NCBI RefSeq assembly: GCF_000235405.2
Contig: NC_017095.1
Location: 636,001 to 700,000 of the forward strand
Direction of reading: 5' to 3'
Length of the DNA: 64,000 nucleotides
Source: Fervidobacterium pennivorans DSM 9078
Lineage (GTDB): Bacteria > Thermotogota > Thermotogae > Thermotogales > Fervidobacteriaceae
This document shows positions 31,320 through 40,412 of this stretch, in pieces. The stretch's first letter is position 1, and every line of letters starts with the position of its first letter. A program made the translations under genes and the position numbers. Below the pieces are notes generated by a model. It saw only the letters and a program-made list of their open reading frames with translations, did no database searches and was not told where the DNA came from.

Positions 31320-33035
31320 TTATGTTACTCCATCTGTGAGGTGCTTTATAACCTCTTCCGGTGCCTCTATAACCGGACTATGACCGATATCTTTCAGCAC
31401 TATCAACTTACCTTGTGGAAAAGCCTCCGCTGTTTTCTTCATACTTTCGTAATCGAGTATAACATCTTTATCACCGTAAATTACTACAACAGGTACTTCT
31501 ACCAAGAATGCTTTATCTGTGTAGTTATAATCTGCAAGAGCTTTTGCATTACCTATGAATGCTTTCTTTGCCATTCTTAGAGCATCTGATGTTATTTTAT
31601 CAAAGAACTTTTCATCATCGTAATTCGGAGCGTTCATCATCAAAGCTCGTTTAATCATATCTGGGTTTTTTCTGTAAACATCTACAATTTTGTAAGCCGA
31701 TTCATCGTAACGAGGCATACCAAATATCGGTGCTGGATCGACTAGTATCAATTTAGCTAAGTTTTTGGGATGTCTTACAGCGTAACCCATGGCGACTGCC
31801 CCACCTAAAGAATGACCAAGCAATATGAAGTTTTTTATTCCAAGGGTATCAACAAACTTTTCCAAGGCATCAACGTATTTTTCGATACTTACATCCCCCG
31901 GAAGCTCATCCGAAAAACCAAAGTTCGGCAAGTCAAGTGCGTAAACCGTGAACTGGTCTTTGGGAATCTTTTGTATGAACGGCTCAAAGAATCTGGAAGA
32001 AGCAAAATTTCCATGGACTAATACAACTGGGATATTTCCGTTTCCATGTTTAATATAGTGTATTCGTCCAACGTGGGTTTGAACAAACGTTCCAAAAGGT
32101 CTTCTGGATTTTTTTAGATACGCTATAATAGCGTTGAGGTAATTCATTCTGAACATCTTTACGTAGAAACTTATTCCCAAAGGCATGAACAGAACCACAA
32201 AAATCAGTAAAGCACCGAAAATAATAGTAAGTGAAAAGTTTGACCTGCTAAACAAAAATGGCATGGCAACGTAAATAAGTGCTCCGTAGAAAGGACCATC
32301 TACCGACGCCATACCACCTATAACGGATATAGCTAGCAAGTCGAGAGACTTTGCTATTCCAAAATCACTCGGGGCTATATAACCAATAACATGTGCATAA
32401 AGTGCACCAGCTATACCAGCGAACATGGAACCAATCGCAAAAGCAAGGACTTTGTACCAAGCAATATTTACACCCATCACAGATGCCGCAGTTTCATTCT
32501 CTCTAATCGCCATCCAAGCACGTCCGGTCTTGGAGTTTATTAGCCTATCAGCAACAACGTAAGCAACGAATAAGAAAGCAATTACTAACAAATACTTTTC
32601 TACATCGGAATTCCATAAGAATGGAAAAGGTATGTTCCTTATCCCTGCATGACCACCTGTAATGTGTTCAAGGTAACTGAAGAGTTGTTCAATAGCAACA
32701 ACAAACCCCATTGTTGCGATAGCAAGGTAAAAGCCTGACAATCTGAGTGCAGGAAAACCTATTAAAATACCAAAGATAAAAGCTGTTATTCCACCCAATA
32801 GGATTCCAAAAACAATGGGGATGTTATAGTGCATAACAAGCAGAGTTGAAGTGTAAGCACCTATGCTCATAAAGGCTGCGTGACCTATCGATATTTGCCC
32901 TGAATATCCCATAATCAAGTTTAAACCTAATGCGGCGAGCGCGTAAATTCCTACAAGGCTAAGTATGGTAATTATGAAAGCATTTTGTAGTAACAAAAAT
33001 GGCAACAACGCTAGTATTAACCAAATCCAAAACAT
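31320..33035 (-). CDS. LivM-type ABC permease fused to an alpha/beta hydrolase
   Basis: 571 residues in one unbroken frame, ATG at 33035 with AAGGAGG upstream. Residues 1 to about 297 are a full LivM permease: GYSGQISIGHAAFMSIGAY, the cytosolic loop KTGRAWMAIRENETAASVMG and LAISVIGGMASVDGPFYGAL. After a basic linker (LKKSRRPF) residues from about 315 are an alpha/beta hydrolase: oxyanion loop LVHGNFASSRFF, nucleophile GHSLGG, acid in YGDKDVILD and catalytic His in GHSPVIEAP. Both halves look complete. I know of no standard family with this fusion. The hydrolase probably faces the cytosol and cleaves the imported compound (inference). Confidence 0.92.
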   Translation of the reverse strand: MFWIWLILALLPFLLLQNAFIITILSLVGIYALAALGLNLIMGYSGQISIGHAAFMSIGAYTSTLLVMHYNIPIVFGILLGGITAFIFGILIGFPALRLSGFYLAIATMGFVVAIEQLFSYLEHITGGHAGIRNIPFPFLWNSDVEKYLLVIAFLFVAYVVADRLINSKTGRAWMAIRENETAASVMGVNIAWYKVLAFAIGSMFAGIAGALYAHVIGYIAPSDFGIAKSLDLLAISVIGGMASVDGPFYGALIYVAMPFLFSRSNFSLTIIFGALLIFVVLFMPLGISFYVKMFRMNYLNAIIAYLKKSRRPFGTFVQTHVGRIHYIKHGNGNIPVVLVHGNFASSRFFEPFIQKIPKDQFTVYALDLPNFGFSDELPGDVSIEKYVDALEKFVDTLGIKNFILLGHSLGGAVAMGYAVRHPKNLAKLILVDPAPIFGMPRYDESAYKIVDVYRKNPDMIKRALMMNAPNYDDEKFFDKITSDALRMAKKAFIGNAKALADYNYTDKAFLVEVPVVVIYGDKDVILDYESMKKTAEAFPQGKLIVLKDIGHSPVIEAPEEVIKHLTDGVT

Positions 33036-33913
33036 CAAGCTCGCCTCCTTACTCTTCTTCCAAACAAACCATTCGGGAAAAAGACCAAGACTATCACTAT
33101 AATAACCAGCGAGATGGAAGCCTTAAAACCTTCAGAAATGTAATTACCCACGATTTTCTCTATGACACCCAACAACAAACCGCCAAAAACTGCCCCAGCA
33201 AATGTCTCAAACCCGCCCAACACGGCAGCTGTAAAACCTTGTATTTGATAGAATGTAAGCATTGTTGGTGAGACAAAAACTTTAGGTGCAGCAATTACTC
33301 CAACCAGCGCAGCCATAGCTGTTCCAAAAGCCCAGGAAAATGCTAGAATTGACCCCACATTTATACCCATGTAGCCTGCAACTTCTTCGTTTTCCGAAAC
33401 CGCACGAACGGCGATACCAAACTTGGTAAACTTAGTAAACAAAGCGATAACAATCGAAATCACAGCAAGGATAGAAAATACTAGTATGTCCTGCCTGCGG
33501 ATAACCATTATTCCAAAATCTCCCCTTATTACATAAGGAGCCCCTGATATAAGTTCAGGGAACGACTTATATTCAGTTCCCCAGAGTTGGACAGCCAACC
33601 CTTCCAAAATCATGAGTATTCCAAATGTAACGATAAGCATTGAACCGTGAGAAAGATGTCTTATAGGTCTCAAGGCGTAGCGCTCAACTAAGATACCCAT
33701 AAGAGCTGCAAACATTATTCCTAGTGCTATGGAAACAAATATATTGAGCCCTATTGAAGAACTCAGCCACCAAATTACGTAAGTCATGAACATCCCCATA
33801 TTTCCGTAGGCGAAATTCATAACACCGCTCACTTTATACATCATGACAAGCCCTATAGCAACTAATGAATACATAGCGCCTGTTGAAAGACCAAGCAGTA
33901 TTTGGTTTATCAC
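33035..33913 (-). CDS. livH: Branched-chain-amino-acid-type ABC permease LivH
   Basis: 292 residues, GTG start overlapping the livF stop, GGAGGTG upstream. Eight or so membrane helices; family marks MINQILLGLSTGAMYSLVAI at the N-terminus and KVSGVMNFAYGNMGM, RAVSENEEVAGYMGINV (ATPase-contact loop) and VLGGFETFAGAVFGG. It forms the membrane channel with the LivM half of the next protein. The HAAT family also moves amides, urea and aromatic acids, so the substrate need not be Leu/Ile/Val. Confidence 0.92.
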   Translation of the reverse strand: MINQILLGLSTGAMYSLVAIGLVMMYKVSGVMNFAYGNMGMFMTYVIWWLSSSIGLNIFVSIALGIMFAALMGILVERYALRPIRHLSHGSMLIVTFGILMILEGLAVQLWGTEYKSFPELISGAPYVIRGDFGIMVIRRQDILVFSILAVISIVIALFTKFTKFGIAVRAVSENEEVAGYMGINVGSILAFSWAFGTAMAALVGVIAAPKVFVSPTMLTFYQIQGFTAAVLGGFETFAGAVFGGLLLGVIEKIVGNYISEGFKASISLVIIVIVLVFFPNGLFGRRVRRRA

Positions 33914-34641
33914 TTTTTAACACCTCCAAGATATTTCTCACGAACAACCGGATTATCTCTAAGCTCTTTTGCATTGCCCGAGAGTGCCACTCTTCCGTTT
34001 TCTAAAACATAACCATAATGTGCAATGCTGAGAGCTACGGAAGTGTTTTGTTCTACAAGTACAATTGTGATTTTCAAAGAATCGTTGATATGTTTTATTA
34101 CTTCTGTAATTTTCTCAATAACGATAGGAGCCAATCCAAGTGACGGCTCATCGAGGAGCAAGTATTTAGGATTGGCCATCAAAGCTCTTGCAATTGCCAA
34201 CATTTGTTGTTCTCCACCCGACAAAGTACCTGCTATTTGGTTGAGCCGTTCTTTTAAAAATGGAAAGATATCAAAAACAAAGTCAAAATCTGGTCTCCTG
34301 TTTGTGTAGGCCCCTGCCAAAAGGTTTTCTTTTACGGTCATTTGATAAAATATCCCTCTACCCTCTGGACACAACACAATTCCCTTCTTTACTCTCATAT
34401 GAACAGGTAGAGCATCTATGGATTCGTTTCCAAGGATTATCGTTCCACTGTATTTGACACTTCCAACAATAGCCTTTAATGTTGAGCTTTTTCCTGCTCC
34501 ATTGGCACCAAGAATGGCAGTTACTCTACCCGATGGAATATTCAGATCTATACCTTTTACGGCATGAACAGGTCCATACCAAACATTAAGTCCCTTGATT
34601 AGAATGTCCTTAGCATCCGTTGGCTGAAAAGGTTTCATCAT
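33910..34641 (-). CDS. livF: ABC transporter ATPase LivF
   Basis: 243 residues, ATG at 34641 after GAGGTGA. Walker A GANGAGKSS, Q-loop region PEGRGIFYQMTVKENL (PEGR is typical of LivF), signature LSGGEQQMLAIARAL, Walker B YLLLDEPSLGLAP and switch His region. Cytosolic ATPase of the importer; pairs with LivG. Overlaps livH by 4 bp. Confidence 0.95.
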   Translation of the reverse strand: MMKPFQPTDAKDILIKGLNVWYGPVHAVKGIDLNIPSGRVTAILGANGAGKSSTLKAIVGSVKYSGTIILGNESIDALPVHMRVKKGIVLCPEGRGIFYQMTVKENLLAGAYTNRRPDFDFVFDIFPFLKERLNQIAGTLSGGEQQMLAIARALMANPKYLLLDEPSLGLAPIVIEKITEVIKHINDSLKITIVLVEQNTSVALSIAHYGYVLENGRVALSGNAKELRDNPVVREKYLGGVKK

Positions 34642-34659
34642 TTTCACCTCTCTGAACCA

Positions 34660-35424
34660 TTATTGGGCGGTTGCCGTACCTGAACCAAGGTACGCTTTTA
34701 TAACTTCTTCGTTATTTATAACCTCTTGAGCGGACCCTTCCGCAATCTTTTTTCCAAAATTAATTACGGTTATTCTATCCGATATATCGAGCACCATTCG
34801 CATATCATGTTCAATCAGAAAAACAGTAATCCCCTTATCTTTTATCTTAATGATTCTCTCTTTGAGAATATCTGATTCCTTCTCGGTCAAACCTGCAGCG
34901 GGTTCATCGAGAAGGAGTATTTTTGGCTCCGTCATAAGTGCTCTTCCCACGTCAATGAGTTTTTGGAAACCGTATGGAAGTGTTCCAGCATAAACTCCCA
35001 GTATGCTCTTTATACCAAGCAAATCGGCTACTTCAATAGCTCGCAACCTTGCCTTGCGTTCCTCCAGTGAAAACCTACTCGTGTGCATAACCTCGTCGAG
35101 ATGATTGTAATTCAACCTCGAGTGATAGCCAAGCATTAAGTTCTGCAAAACAGTCATATATTTGAAAATAATGATGTTCTGGAAACTTCTTCCAAGACCA
35201 TGGTAAACTCTTTTGTGAACCGGCACGTGGGTAATATCCTTGCCATCAAGGATAACCCTCCCATCGTGTTTAACCAATCCAGATATAGCGTTAAAGACAG
35301 TGGTTTTCCCAGCACCGTTAGGTCCTATCAAGGAATGTATGGTCTTTTCCCCAACTTCCATCGAAAGATTGTCAACTGCAACAAGTCCAGAGAACCTAAC
35401 AGTTATATTCTCAAGCTTCAGCAT
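34660..35424 (-). CDS. livG: ABC transporter ATPase LivG
   Basis: 254 residues. Walker A GPNGAGKTT, GLGRSFQNIIIFKYMTVLQNL, signature segment LPYGFQKLIDVGRALM (the LSGGQ motif is replaced by LPYGF, as in many LivG), Walker B ILLLDEPAAGL and LIEHDMRMVL. First gene after the 35.4-35.6 kb hairpin; 18 bp before livF. ATG at 35424 rather than the preceding GTG because of GGGAGTTGAG upstream. Confidence 0.95.
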   Translation of the reverse strand: MLKLENITVRFSGLVAVDNLSMEVGEKTIHSLIGPNGAGKTTVFNAISGLVKHDGRVILDGKDITHVPVHKRVYHGLGRSFQNIIIFKYMTVLQNLMLGYHSRLNYNHLDEVMHTSRFSLEERKARLRAIEVADLLGIKSILGVYAGTLPYGFQKLIDVGRALMTEPKILLLDEPAAGLTEKESDILKERIIKIKDKGITVFLIEHDMRMVLDISDRITVINFGKKIAEGSAQEVINNEEVIKAYLGSGTATAQ

Positions 35425-35490
35425 CACTTCTCAACTCCCGTTTTTATTGTTTCCGTTGTTTACCCTTCATTCTTATTTTTACTTACAAAA

Positions 35491-35622: not shown

Positions 35623-36783
35623 TTATGGCCTAATTAAGTCGGTGAGTGGCACAAATTGACCGTTCTTAACAACCATGAAATACATTGAGGACTTACCGCG
35701 CCTAAGGTTTGGACCCCATGTAATATCTTTTGCAAGTATACCATTCCAATTTTTGAAACTTTCAAGAGCCTTCACAAGACCTTCCCTTGTCAAGTTCTTT
35801 CCGGCCCTAATCAATCCTTCTGTGAACACCTCTGCTGCGATAAATCCGGCAACTGCATATGAGGACATTATTTCTTTTGGATACGTTTGTTGATAAATAG
35901 AGATAGCTCTTTGGTAATCTCTCACAAATTCTGGTCTATCAGGAGTTGGAAGTGGTACCCATCCTGTAAAAATAACACCTTCAGCATATTTACCTGCTAG
36001 TTTTATGAAGGAGGGGTCGGCATTTGGATAGATGGTAATTATCTTACTATCAAGCCCGTAGTCGCGAATTGTTTTGATCCATCTTATTGTGTCCGTAATA
36101 AGTCCGTAGATAACAATAACGTCTGGATTTTTTTCAACGAGCTTTACAACAAGTCCGCTGTAATCTGTATCAGCGGGGTTGTAGGAAATCTCAACAACCA
36201 GTTTCATTTTGTAGTCTTCAAGCTTGGCTTTAAACGCAGCGTAGCCTTCTAAGCCAACATCGTTGTTCATGTAAACGATTGCTGGATTTTTGAATTTCGC
36301 AATCTCTCCTACGTATTTACCAATAAGAGTTCCCTCAAGAGTGTAGTCTGGTTGGACACCGAAGATGTATTTTTTCGGAGGAATAACGAGTTTTGATGTT
36401 CCCGCACCTTGATATACAAATGGAACTTTGTTCTGTTCGAGGTAATCCATAACTGCCAAACAACCGTAGGTTCCGAGTCCACCGACAATTGCAAAAACTT
36501 TGTCTTGCTCAACTAACCTCTTGACCTCGACAACTGTCTTTGCTGGGTTGAGTTGATCATCAGCGATTATTAGTTCTATTTTTCTTCCATGGATACCGCC
36601 TCTGCTGTTAATCCAGTTGAAGTACGCTTTCATCCCTTTGCTCATTTCTTGCCCGATGACAGCATAAGGACCAGACAGCGCTTGAAATGTTCCAACAACA
36701 ACTTTGTCGTTATAGACACCAACTTCAGCAAACACGCTTACCAAAAAGATAAGCATAAGAATAACACTTAACAACTTCTTCAT
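35623..36783 (-). CDS. Periplasmic substrate-binding protein, LivK/J type
   Basis: 386 residues from the ATG at 36783 (GGAGGTGGGTTGT upstream). Signal peptide MKKLLSVILMLIFLVSVFA, then the type I periplasmic-binding fold: VVVGTFQALSGPYAVIGQEM, FNWINSRGGIHGRKIELI, DDQLNPAKTVVEVKRLV, ending in a helix-strand typical of LivK. It captures the ligand outside the membrane. It is separated from livG by a 200-bp gap with the hairpin and follows the CoA-transferase gene by 53 bp. Confidence 0.93.
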   Translation of the reverse strand: MKKLLSVILMLIFLVSVFAEVGVYNDKVVVGTFQALSGPYAVIGQEMSKGMKAYFNWINSRGGIHGRKIELIIADDQLNPAKTVVEVKRLVEQDKVFAIVGGLGTYGCLAVMDYLEQNKVPFVYQGAGTSKLVIPPKKYIFGVQPDYTLEGTLIGKYVGEIAKFKNPAIVYMNNDVGLEGYAAFKAKLEDYKMKLVVEISYNPADTDYSGLVVKLVEKNPDVIVIYGLITDTIRWIKTIRDYGLDSKIITIYPNADPSFIKLAGKYAEGVIFTGWVPLPTPDRPEFVRDYQRAISIYQQTYPKEIMSSYAVAGFIAAEVFTEGLIRAGKNLTREGLVKALESFKNWNGILAKDITWGPNLRRGKSSMYFMVVKNGQFVPLTDLIRP

Positions 36784-36836
36784 ACAACCCACCTCCTATG
36801 ATGGAATAAAATGGAAGCAAGAATAGCTCTACACAC

Positions 36837-38120
36837 TTAGATTAATCCCAGCTTTTGAGCTTCTTTTGTTAAGTAGTCACGAAAATCCGGATGTGCTATT
36901 GATATTAACGCAAGTGCACGTTTCCTTGTTGGTAATCCTCTAAGTCTTACCGCGCCCCATTCTGTCACAACGTAATCCAATTCTTGCCGTGGAACTGTGA
37001 TAGGTGAACCTTGTGGTAGTAGTGGAACTATCGTGGAAACCTGGCCTTCTTTAGCAGTTGACCTCATCGCTATGATGCCTTTACCTCCCTTGCTCTTTAC
37101 CGCACCCCTATGAGTATCCAGCTGACCACCCGTGCCACTATAATGACTTGTTCCAATTGCTTCAGAACAAACATTTCCTGTCAAATCGACCATGAGTGCA
37201 GTGTTGATACTGACCATCTTTTCGTTCTGGGCTATGATGTATGGGTCGTTCACATACCTACCTCTCAAGAACAGTACAGATGGATTGTCGTCAATGAACT
37301 TATACATTCTCTGGCTACCGTAAGCAAACGTACATACAAACTTTCCGTTCCAAAGAGTTTTTTTCTTATTCGTGATAACTCCTGCCTCAAAGAGGTCTAT
37401 CATGCTCTCCGTAAACATCTCTGTGTGTATACCCAAATCCTTTTTCTCAACTAAGAACTTTGCAACAGCATTTGGGATTCCGCCAATGCCCAGCTGAATA
37501 GTTGAACCATCTTCTATAAGTTCCACAATATGTTCTGCTATCTTTTTCTCAACTTCAGCTGGTTCAAGAAGTTCGGCTTGGGGCAAAGGATAGTCAACCT
37601 CTATTATGTAATCAACTTCGGAAATGTGAACATGAGTATCACCATGAGTTCTTGGAGCATTCGGATTTACTTCGAGTATAACTATATCTGCGTTCTCAAG
37701 TACATCCTTCTCGTAGACAACGCTTGCCGACAATGTGAAGAATCCTTTTTCATCCATAGGAGAGGCTACTCCGACAAAAACATTTATTTTTGTAGACTGT
37801 ATAAGGTTCATACCAGCTTGGTGCAGATTATTCGGAACATAATATGTGTTTTTTGAAAGCTTTCGGTTGTAAGGTCCAAAAAACCAAGAATAATTGTAAA
37901 ATCTATTGAAATATTCTTCGTTTGAACAAAATTCATAAGGTTCGGTGTTTAAACACGTATAAATTTCCAAGCCACTTACCTGTGTTCGATGCAAGTTTCT
38001 AAGGAAAACTTTCGGCTCCATGGGAGTCATTCCAACAACGATTGTCCAGTTATCTTGAAGGATCGACAGCACCTTGTCAATGTCAACAAGCTTTTTTTGA
38101 TATTCCTCTCTTAGATTCAC
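36837..38120 (-). CDS. Acetyl-CoA hydrolase/CoA-transferase family protein (4-hydroxybutyrate CoA-transferase type)
   Basis: 427 residues, class I CoA-transferase fold in two halves. Visible: VILEVNPNAPRTHGDTHVHI, IQLGIGGIPNAVAKFL (209-223), the probable catalytic Glu234 in HTEMFTESM, and the C-terminal VVTEWGAVRLRGLPTRKRA. It would move CoA from acetyl-CoA (or similar) to a carboxylic acid. Start overlaps the regulator stop by 4 bp. Between a tandem TetR and an ABC importer, it is well placed to activate an imported or released acid. Confidence 0.9.
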   Translation of the reverse strand: MNLREEYQKKLVDIDKVLSILQDNWTIVVGMTPMEPKVFLRNLHRTQVSGLEIYTCLNTEPYEFCSNEEYFNRFYNYSWFFGPYNRKLSKNTYYVPNNLHQAGMNLIQSTKINVFVGVASPMDEKGFFTLSASVVYEKDVLENADIVILEVNPNAPRTHGDTHVHISEVDYIIEVDYPLPQAELLEPAEVEKKIAEHIVELIEDGSTIQLGIGGIPNAVAKFLVEKKDLGIHTEMFTESMIDLFEAGVITNKKKTLWNGKFVCTFAYGSQRMYKFIDDNPSVLFLRGRYVNDPYIIAQNEKMVSINTALMVDLTGNVCSEAIGTSHYSGTGGQLDTHRGAVKSKGGKGIIAMRSTAKEGQVSTIVPLLPQGSPITVPRQELDYVVTEWGAVRLRGLPTRKRALALISIAHPDFRDYLTKEAQKLGLI

Positions 38121-39358
38121 ATCGCCACCCCCAAGCCTTCGGAGAGGTAAATGTAAATATCTTCCAAAAAGCGTTCCAACTTTTCTGTATCAGAAACTTT
38201 GCCTGCAAGAATGTATCGTTCACCCAAATAATGACCGATTCCCATTAGTAGAATGGCAATGTATTGTAAAATGCTTTTTGTATCAATAGTCTTGAATTTT
38301 TCCAAATTTAGTTGGAGTTTCCCGTCCTTAACTGAGTTTTCTAGAGCTTTGCAGTAAGAAATAAATATCGATGTGTAATAATCTTTCGCAATCTCTAAAT
38401 CTAATGACTGGCTTTCTCTGACGATTTTGTACATACTCGCGTGACTTTTGAAAAACTGGACAAAGGCATACAACCCAGCTATCTCTTGAACTAACCTTGG
38501 ATAGTGTTTAACATTTTCCATGGCTTTTCTAACGTTGTATCTTAGCCCCTTATTTATCCATCGTACTAATTCACGTAAGATTTGCTTTTTATTTTCAAAG
38601 TAGAGATACACTGTCCCAACTCCGATTCCAGATGCCCTTGCAATGTCGTATATCTGCGTTTTTTGGTAGCCGTAAGTTCCAAACAAGGTTTCTGCATTTG
38701 CAAGTATTAATTCTCGTTTTTCATCTACTTCGAGAACATGTTTTTCAGGTGTGAACGTAAATATTTCTTTTGGAAGATTTTGGAATTCCTTCTTTTCTTT
38801 TTGAATTCCGTTCATAATGAGCGAGAGAAAAACCTTAGGCTTTACTTGTACTCCCAACAGATTCCCAAAGTTAATTGCAAACCTTATTGGTGACCAGAAA
38901 TAGAAGAGCCCAACATCAGTTAATCCATGTTTCTCCGAGATAGAATGTATTACATCTTCAAATTCGTTCCTTAACCATTCGAAATGATATTCGTTGAGAT
39001 GCATGGCTTGGATTAAGTTCTTATTTCTCTTGCAGTATTCAAAATATTTTAGTGCGACATCTGTTATAGACTCCCCTTCCAATGACTCTTTAAGGTCTCT
39101 TATAAAATCGTCAACAATCTCTCGAAACAATTCATACTTGTTAATGTAGTATTGATAAAAGGCAGCCGTGCTCAAACCTGCATGTTTAGTAATTTGGGAG
39201 ATGGACACGTCGGCAAAGTTGTTTTTGCTAAAGAGTTCTATAGCAGCCATCTTCAGTTTATTCTTAGATTCTATACCATCAGCTCGTTGGGGTATTCTTT
39301 TTGCTTTCTTATTTCCGGTGATTGTCACATCCTTCTGAAACATTTCTCTCTTCTTCAC
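38117..39358 (-). CDS. Regulator with two TetR units in one chain
   Basis: 413 residues, GTG start 9 bp after GGAGGT. Two TetR-type DNA-binding domains are present: residues 33-80 (KMAAIELFSKNNFADVSISQ, HAGLSTAAFYQYYINKYELF) and 213-262 (ILANAETLFGTYGYQKTQIY, ASGIGVGTVYLYFENKKQIL), each followed by its own helical domain. TetR proteins normally are about 200 residues and dimerise; here the pair is covalent. It is likely to control this gene cluster in response to an acyl or CoA ligand (inference). It lies between the KAS III-like and the CoA-transferase genes. Confidence 0.9.
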   Translation of the reverse strand: MKKREMFQKDVTITGNKKAKRIPQRADGIESKNKLKMAAIELFSKNNFADVSISQITKHAGLSTAAFYQYYINKYELFREIVDDFIRDLKESLEGESITDVALKYFEYCKRNKNLIQAMHLNEYHFEWLRNEFEDVIHSISEKHGLTDVGLFYFWSPIRFAINFGNLLGVQVKPKVFLSLIMNGIQKEKKEFQNLPKEIFTFTPEKHVLEVDEKRELILANAETLFGTYGYQKTQIYDIARASGIGVGTVYLYFENKKQILRELVRWINKGLRYNVRKAMENVKHYPRLVQEIAGLYAFVQFFKSHASMYKIVRESQSLDLEIAKDYYTSIFISYCKALENSVKDGKLQLNLEKFKTIDTKSILQYIAILLMGIGHYLGERYILAGKVSDTEKLERFLEDIYIYLSEGLGVAM

Positions 39359-39428: not shown

Positions 39429-40412
39429 TCATATTCTAAAAGCAGTAGCAACTTGCTGATATCCAACACCGGATGTCAAGAAAATAACTACTTTACCTTT
39501 CACTTGCTCAATTTTTCCTTCATCAAACGCGTCATCGTAGGCCATGTACACACATGCAGAACCAGTGTAACCGTACTTATGCATAATCATATGTGCTTTT
39601 TCTATGGGCAGCCCAAGCGTTTCCATAACCTTTTCGATTGTCTTTTTCCTCACTTGTGTAAAGAATATCATACCTATTTCATCTTTTGTGATGTTGTATT
39701 TTTCCATAAGTTTATTAATCAACATGGGCCATCCTTCTTCGTTGACTGTAGATGGGTAAGCCGCTCTGAGATCCAGTTTGTGAAGCCCTCTTTCAAAACC
39801 TGCCAAGTTCATGGTGCCTGCCCCTATGTATATTCCCCAGTTTTGCCACCAACTACCGTCAGCGCGTGCCACACTACCTATAAACCCAGGTTCGTCCGAA
39901 GCCGTAAGTATTAGTGCACCTGCACCATCACTGAAAAGAGCTTCCCATGAATATTTCCAACTTAGAAACTTGGTCATCGCATATGTGCCTATAACGAGGA
40001 CATTCTTGTAATCCCCCATGGCTATATACCTTGCTGCGATATCAAGCATCAACGCTCCATTTGCACATGAAGCATTTACGTTAAAAGCAAGTGGTTCTGC
40101 TTTGTGGGCACCTATGAGGTACTGAACCCTTGGAGCATCTGGTGGGGATACCGCTTCCGGAGTATCTGTACCAACAATTATCAAATCAATTTCTTCCGGT
40201 TTCATACCAATTCGAGCAAGTGCCTTTTTAGCTGCTTCTGCAGCCATGTAAGTAGGAGTCTCCCACTCTTCTGAAATATGTCTGTGATTGATACCAATCA
40301 CATCTGAGAAATATGGGTCAATAGTAAACATCGTTAGCTTTTCGAACTCCGCATTCGTCATCACTTTCTTGGGAACATACATTCCAGAGGAAATAATCTT
40401 TGCGTACTTCAT
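39429..40412 (-). CDS. KAS III (FabH)-like thiolase-fold enzyme with altered active site
   Basis: 327 residues; AAAGGAGGT before the ATG. FabH-like throughout: SSGMYVPKKVMTN, IIVGTDTPEAVSPPDA, nucleophile Cys116 in NASCANGA and SDGAGALIL. The His of the usual triad, normally in an HQAN motif, is replaced: the aligned piece is MIFFTQVRKKTIEKV (249-263); the Asn, normally in GNTSAA, is Tyr282 in HKYGYTGSAC. Decarboxylative Claisen chemistry needs His and Asn, so it may be an acyltransferase or thioesterase instead. First gene of the cluster, behind an extended -10. Confidence 0.85.
   Translation of the reverse strand: MKYAKIISSGMYVPKKVMTNAEFEKLTMFTIDPYFSDVIGINHRHISEEWETPTYMAAEAAKKALARIGMKPEEIDLIIVGTDTPEAVSPPDAPRVQYLIGAHKAEPLAFNVNASCANGALMLDIAARYIAMGDYKNVLVIGTYAMTKFLSWKYSWEALFSDGAGALILTASDEPGFIGSVARADGSWWQNWGIYIGAGTMNLAGFERGLHKLDLRAAYPSTVNEEGWPMLINKLMEKYNITKDEIGMIFFTQVRKKTIEKVMETLGLPIEKAHMIMHKYGYTGSACVYMAYDDAFDEGKIEQVKGKVVIFLTSGVGYQQVATAFRI

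Follow-up and report, generated by a model that had tools for sequence, protein, structure and literature searches.

A LivM-type permease fused to an alpha/beta-hydrolase is conserved in the Thermotogota and may serve the import and cleavage of a short ester

The window analysed here is a stretch of 64,000 nucleotides from Fervidobacterium pennivorans DSM 9078 (assembly GCF_000235405.2, contig NC_017095.1, positions 636,001 to 700,000), and its positions are counted from its first letter. On its minus strand, a single gene encodes a LivM-type permease of an ATP-binding cassette (ABC) importer joined to an alpha/beta-hydrolase. This fusion is real and conserved, and it represents a variant of a known importer type. 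The hydrolase is predicted to face the cytoplasm, and we tentatively propose that it cleaves an imported short (3-hydroxy)acyl ester, for example an oligomer of 3-hydroxybutyrate, into acids. The parts of the gene are as follows, with residues counted from the TTG start.

31320..33035, minus strand: livM-hydrolase fusion gene (open reading frame, Pfam matches, homologues)
32175..33038, minus strand: LivM permease domain, residues 1-288 (Pfam BPD_transp_2 at 22-281, AlphaFold2 (AF2) helices)
32091..32174, minus strand: linker, residues 289-316 (AF2 secondary structure, hydrophobicity and charge over 116 sequences)
31320..32090, minus strand: alpha/beta-hydrolase domain, residues 317-572, stop included (Pfam Abhydrolase_1 at 337-560, fold match to PhaZ)
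32007..32015, minus strand: His-Gly-Asn (HGN) motif, residues 342-344, probable end of the oxyanion-hole strand
31809..31811, minus strand: nucleophile Ser410 in GHSLGG
31464..31466, minus strand: acid Asp525
31380..31382, minus strand: base His553

The open reading frame (ORF) is free of stops and covers 31320-33038 when read from TTG (572 aa) or 31320-33035 when read from ATG (571 aa); the ATG overlaps the stop codon of the LivH gene by one base (TGATG). Both Pfam matches exceed their cut-offs, with 157.8 bits for BPD_transp_2 (cut-off 26.8) and 118.3 bits for Abhydrolase_1 (cut-off 25.8), the latter placing the second half of the protein in the alpha/beta-hydrolase superfamily. The AF2 model reached a predicted local distance difference test score (pLDDT) of 94. 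An earlier note, made from the letters of this DNA, had described one stop-free frame with a LivM permease and a complete hydrolase carrying a GHSLGG nucleophile, an acid and a His, and the ORF and the two domains bear this out.

To define the spread of the fusion, 103 genomes of the phylum were surveyed, a fusion-type match being one with an expectation value (E) of at most 1e-60. Such a match was found in 58 genomes, of which 52 carry the two halves in one stop-free frame, four carry them split and two have a damaged gene. Among the 52, 46 are near full length and six are partial (G009, G038, G042, G047, G057 and G089), and the two halves remain joined at identities as low as about 40%. In the genome of the window, a single contig of 2.17 Mb, the fusion occurs once, and the remaining matches are single-domain proteins. 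Of the homologues with a name, the closest come from Fervidobacterium; one listed fused homologue, P0118, carries the name of a Spirochaetales metagenome-assembled genome. The earlier note had named two outcomes that would speak against it, a missed stop or frameshift near the junction and homologues in which the genes are always separate; neither occurred. Its statement that ABC permeases with an enzymatic domain are rare does not hold inside the Thermotogota, where the fused form is common.

The window sequence was aligned with those of the 120 listed homologues that have at least 540 aa, i.e., 115 sequences, excluding five shorter ones. The triad Ser410-Asp525-His553 is invariant in all 116 sequences, which establishes a Ser-Asp-His triad with a nucleophile elbow, and the HGN motif is likewise invariant. 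The conservation of catalytic residues, proposed earlier as a check, is thus complete. A sequencing or frameshift artefact was considered and is ruled out by the identical triad together with the 52 stop-free fusions. The ratio of non-synonymous to synonymous substitution rates (dN/dS) was calculated for seven genome pairs, five of which showed saturation in one half or both. In the two pairs unsaturated in both halves, the permease had values of 0.052 and 0.109 and the hydrolase values of 0.077 and 0.124, and on these sequence comparisons both halves are under purifying selection.

Both by sequence and by fold, the best match of the hydrolase domain is the poly(3-hydroxybutyrate) depolymerase PhaZ of Bacillus thuringiensis (PDB 8ynv, 8ynw), and the HGN motif and the G-x-S-x-G surroundings are common to both proteins; the matches listed by the fold searches were hydrolases only. 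With respect to NF050089, the family of PhaZ-type intracellular depolymerases of short-chain-length polyhydroxyalkanoates (PHA), the fold agrees, but the score of 137 bits stays below the cut-off of 300. PhaZ is a free enzyme that acts on stored polymer, whereas the hydrolase described here is fused to a permease.

The permease sequence had no match among solved structures at E ≤ 1, and its topology was therefore derived from the order of the helices, the hydrophobicity and the charge. According to the AF2 secondary structure and the charge profile of the 116 sequences, the linker consists of a helix (residues 289-309) followed by a basic cluster, and the helix contains charged residues in all 116. 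By the positive-inside rule, this predicts a cytoplasmic linker and C-terminus and hence a hydrolase domain located where the substrate emerges. The earlier note had supposed this location, and the hydrophobicity of the linker and the AF2 helices agree with it.

The fusion gene is preceded on the same strand by the other parts of the importer and by genes of a putative catabolic pathway:

33035..33913, minus strand: LivH-type permease
33910..34647, minus strand: LivF-type ATPase
34660..35427, minus strand: LivG-type ATPase with BCA_ABC_TP_C
35623..36792, minus strand: binding protein (Peripla_BP_6), with Tyr replacing Glu226 of LivJ
36837..38120, minus strand: CoA-transferase of the 4-hydroxybutyrate/butyrate type
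38117..39358, minus strand: regulator that combines two TetR-type DNA-binding stretches in a single protein
39429..40412, minus strand: KS3a, similar to beta-ketoacyl-ACP synthase III (KASIII), with Cys kept and the His and Asn of FabH missing

One Peripla_BP_6 protein, two BPD_transp_2 permeases and two ABC ATPases of the LivG and LivF types in one operon make up the five parts of a HAAT-type importer (LIV-I type, LivJ/K-H-M-G-F), and the binding protein, both ATPases and LivH are intact beside the fusion gene, as the earlier note had stated. Unlike HAAT importers, one permease here bears a C-terminal hydrolase, and the binding protein lacks Glu226 of LivJ, which we take to be the residue holding the amino group of the ligand. 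At this position Glu is found in LivJ and LivK of Escherichia coli, but Tyr in all nine operon binding proteins, so that by this residue the binding protein does not qualify as part of a branched-chain amino acid transporter. A structural model of the binding protein built from five sequences was poor (pLDDT 49.8). Import of branched-chain amino acids was also considered as the function of the system and is made unlikely by the residues of the binding protein and by the neighbouring genes.

For the neighbour count, 23 of 30 fetched loci were used (21 fused, 1 split, 1 interrupted), leaving out a damaged copy (L062) and short or fusion-free pieces (L065, L066, L068, L069, L070 and L071). Genes were called by identity limits and E ≤ 1e-15. 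The binding protein was found in all 23 loci, the CoA-transferase in 22, KS3a in 18, a FabG-like short-chain dehydrogenase/reductase (SDR) in 16, TetR in 14, a second KASIII-like protein (KS3b) in 11 and a thiolase in 8. None of these genes was found in 20 control loci, which hold permeases of the same Pfam family without hydrolase, were collected by similarity and may include some of sugar type. In 15 further loci, mostly from other families and called at E ≤ 1e-10, the binding protein and TetR were each present in 15, the CoA-transferase in 11, the thiolase in 10, KS3b in 9 and the SDR in 8. In most loci of the Fervidobacterium and Pseudothermotoga types, the KS3a proteins share 79-98% identity, and the loss of the FabH His and Asn next to a retained Cys was seen in the three sequences aligned.

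Across genomes, the CoA-transferase (E ≤ 1e-90) occurs in 57 of the 58 with a fusion-type match vs. 11 of the 45 without. The single fusion-type genome without it is G014, whose fusion is damaged, and the 11 fusion-negative genomes comprise nine of genus g31 and two of g19 (G049 and G059). Weaker cases among the 57 are G001, G003 and G004 (see below), G101, with 45% identity, and G089, with a fragment containing a stop. The nearest solved relatives of the CoA-transferase are of the 4-hydroxybutyrate type (9vag, 9.5e-101; 3eh7, 3.1e-99), which assigns it to this type, although with 305 bits it lies below the TIGR03948 equivalog cut-off of 674.8. Among 61 relatives, the thiolase was found in all 35 with a fusion-type match and in nine of the 26 without. 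In the genome of the window, a thiolase (74% identical to an operon copy) and an SDR (75%) lie together about 430 kb from the fusion. At this site (L078 7896-10911, about 231.9-234.9 kb of the genome), an IS240-type transposase gene is located between the two.

The enzymes recognised around the fusion, i.e., CoA-transferase, dehydrogenase and thiolase, work on acids that already carry a hydroxyl group at C3. Combined with the Tyr in place of Glu226 and the similarity of the hydrolase to PhaZ, this suggests that the substrate consists of 3-hydroxybutyrate oligomers or of a short ester resembling them. In the proposed route, the binding protein would take up a small carboxylic ester instead of an amino acid, and the hydrolase, positioned at the inner opening of the permease, would split it. 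The CoA-transferase would then convert the released acid to its CoA form, the FabG-like dehydrogenase would oxidise the 3-hydroxyacyl-CoA, and the thiolase would yield acetyl-CoA for the formation of acetate and ATP. The earlier note had proposed hydrolysis of an ester or amide; the neighbouring genes and the binding protein narrow this to a short (3-hydroxy)acyl ester and lead away from amino acids.

Several observations weigh against this route. PHA synthase was found in none of the 61 relatives, and Esterase_PHB was matched in 13 of them, above its cut-off in six and not at all in the genome of the window, so that a source of the oligomers is not evident. The low score of the hydrolase in the PhaZ-type family also counts against the route. 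Within the stretch read, four of the 15 further loci (L107, L109, L110 and L120) contain neither CoA-transferase nor SDR nor thiolase; in the genome of L107 (G096), these three genes and a second HAAT set lie in one run 12 kb away. In three genomes of the window's own genus (G001, G003 and G004), there is no CoA-transferase other than one of 59% identity, which in G001 lies on a different contig from the fusion. Given the fusion-free relatives with a thiolase, and the SDR found in 91 of the 103 phylum genomes, the mere presence of either gene says little, while two fusion genomes (G016 and G101) have no SDR at the threshold used. Finally, the KASIII-like proteins KS3a and KS3b have no explained role in the proposed pathway. 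Two specific versions of polyhydroxybutyrate (PHB) metabolism were rejected on these counts: a PHB storage cycle, by the missing PHA synthase, and supply by a known secreted PHB depolymerase, by the distribution of Esterase_PHB.

The natural variants of the system bear on how closely transport and hydrolysis are linked. All four split fusions belong to genus g26, with adjoining genes in G058, G061 and G062 and two ORFs in G063. In the latter (L117 7930-9663), two stops exactly at the linker separate permease and hydrolase while the basic cluster is retained, which looks like a recent fission. The two damaged genes are those of G014, which is interrupted by stops, and of G030, where an insert of several hundred bases lies within the hydrolase part (L064 9568-11770). 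In a permease tree of 231 sequences (116 fused, 114 unfused, 1 split), one clade with a support of 0.841 unites all fused forms and also includes the split G058, P0252 next to it, P0344 and the two short fragments P0240 and P0241. A single fused clade with split members nested inside it favours one fusion event followed by fissions, at the level of this phylogeny. In the hydrolase tree, free and fused copies interleave at low support, and this tree does not discriminate between a single fusion and repeated fission.

Genus g31 (nine genomes), which is probably Mesotoga judging by the named protein P0168, offers a second arrangement. In all three loci read (L121, L124 and L125), an operon of KS3b, SDR, TetR, CoA-transferase and thiolase is followed by a different HAAT importer and ends with a free hydrolase homologue that shows 37-38% identity and retains GHSLGG. 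Judged by eye, the N-termini of these free enzymes resemble signal peptides. The hydrolase is thus part of this pathway whether or not it is fused, and lineages may differ in where cleavage takes place. In our reading, the g31 importer takes up the cleaved acid, and the fusion importer the uncleaved ester.

A serious, if somewhat doubtful, alternative is that the hydrolase is a conventional soluble enzyme from this catabolic operon, tethered to the importer by the fusion. The tether would then provide membrane location and fixed stoichiometry with no coupling to transport. The adjacent genes of the four g26 genomes and the free gene of g31 fit this well, and the nesting of split permeases in the fused clade indicates that loss of the tether is tolerated. 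However, the retention of the fusion in half of the surveyed genomes, down to the identity given above, exceeds what an accidental tether would lead one to expect, and the interleaved hydrolase tree lends this alternative no clear backing. The g26 and g31 arrangements also count against strict coupling. We regard it as doubtful that the permease delivers the ester directly to the active site of the hydrolase it carries, with uptake made one-way by chemistry as well as ATP, in a so far unrecognised route for 3-hydroxybutyrate oligomers in the Thermotogota.

The substrate could instead be another small ester, lactone or amide, such as an ester of an aromatic or branched acid or an enol-lactone, with CoA-transferase, SDR and thiolase handling a beta-hydroxy or beta-keto acid other than 3-hydroxybutyrate. 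Enol-lactonase and esterase families likewise score well on the hydrolase, several operons contain a second, PcaD-like hydrolase, and the chains closest to the binding protein, some of which presumably bind aromatic or keto acids, carry annotations as leucine-type, HAAT or unspecified ligand-binding proteins. We consider this rather unlikely, since PhaZ is the best match in sequence and fold, and since the genes identified beside the fusion include no recognisable acyl-CoA dehydrogenase or ring-cleavage gene. A periplasmic location of the hydrolase, with cleavage of the substrate ahead of uptake, is improbable: the g31 enzymes suggest that an exported version exists, but the charged linker helix and basic cluster of the fused protein place its C-terminus inside. 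Least probable is a regulatory or structural domain that has lost its enzymatic function, e.g., a substrate sensor gating the importer; accessory regulatory domains do occur on ABC importers, but the invariant triad and HGN motif, purifying selection on both halves and the GHSLGG retained in the free g31 copies speak for an active enzyme.

Enzyme domains fused to ABC transporters and processing their cargo are described for the peptidase-containing ABC transporters (PCATs) in the opening parts of PMC6959990 and PMC13001449. Those are peptide exporters with protease domains of unrelated fold, working in the opposite direction; the present protein carries no C39 peptidase domain on an exporter but an alpha/beta-hydrolase on an importer permease. 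It is conceivable, though we lean against it, that such a cargo-digesting importer is the equivalent, for uptake, of the PCAT exporters that cut their cargo. On plasmids, one of 2606 matching records covers at least 80% of the query: in NZ_CP011480.1 of Hoeflea sp. IMCC20628, HAAT genes are directly followed by an alpha/beta-hydrolase gene, with acyl-CoA genes nearby. Unlike the fusion, the halves there are two separate genes, with 25.8% identity.

Among the titles and abstract openings listed in searches of openly available papers, subscription journals being outside this scope, no description of a LivM-hydrolase fusion was found; passages of PMC9878459 deal with an F. nodosum lipase and polycaprolactone (PCL). 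If the proposed ester route is correct, a large part of a fermenting phylum would possess a carbon route hidden by current protein labels, and short polyester fragments might enter anaerobic metabolism in this way. The fusion would also offer a natural thermostable permease-enzyme pair for testing the coupling of import and catalysis, with the natural split versions as controls.

Chemoreceptor genes adjoin importer or pathway genes in three loci (L107 13529-15526, L110 2084-4084 and L078 5574-7559), and these receptors possibly sense the same substrate. In databases, the fused protein is labelled either as a branched-chain amino acid permease or as an alpha/beta-fold hydrolase. One source also gives free hydrolases in the protein search the name 'branched-chain amino acid transport system permease protein', a label that has probably spread from the fused proteins.
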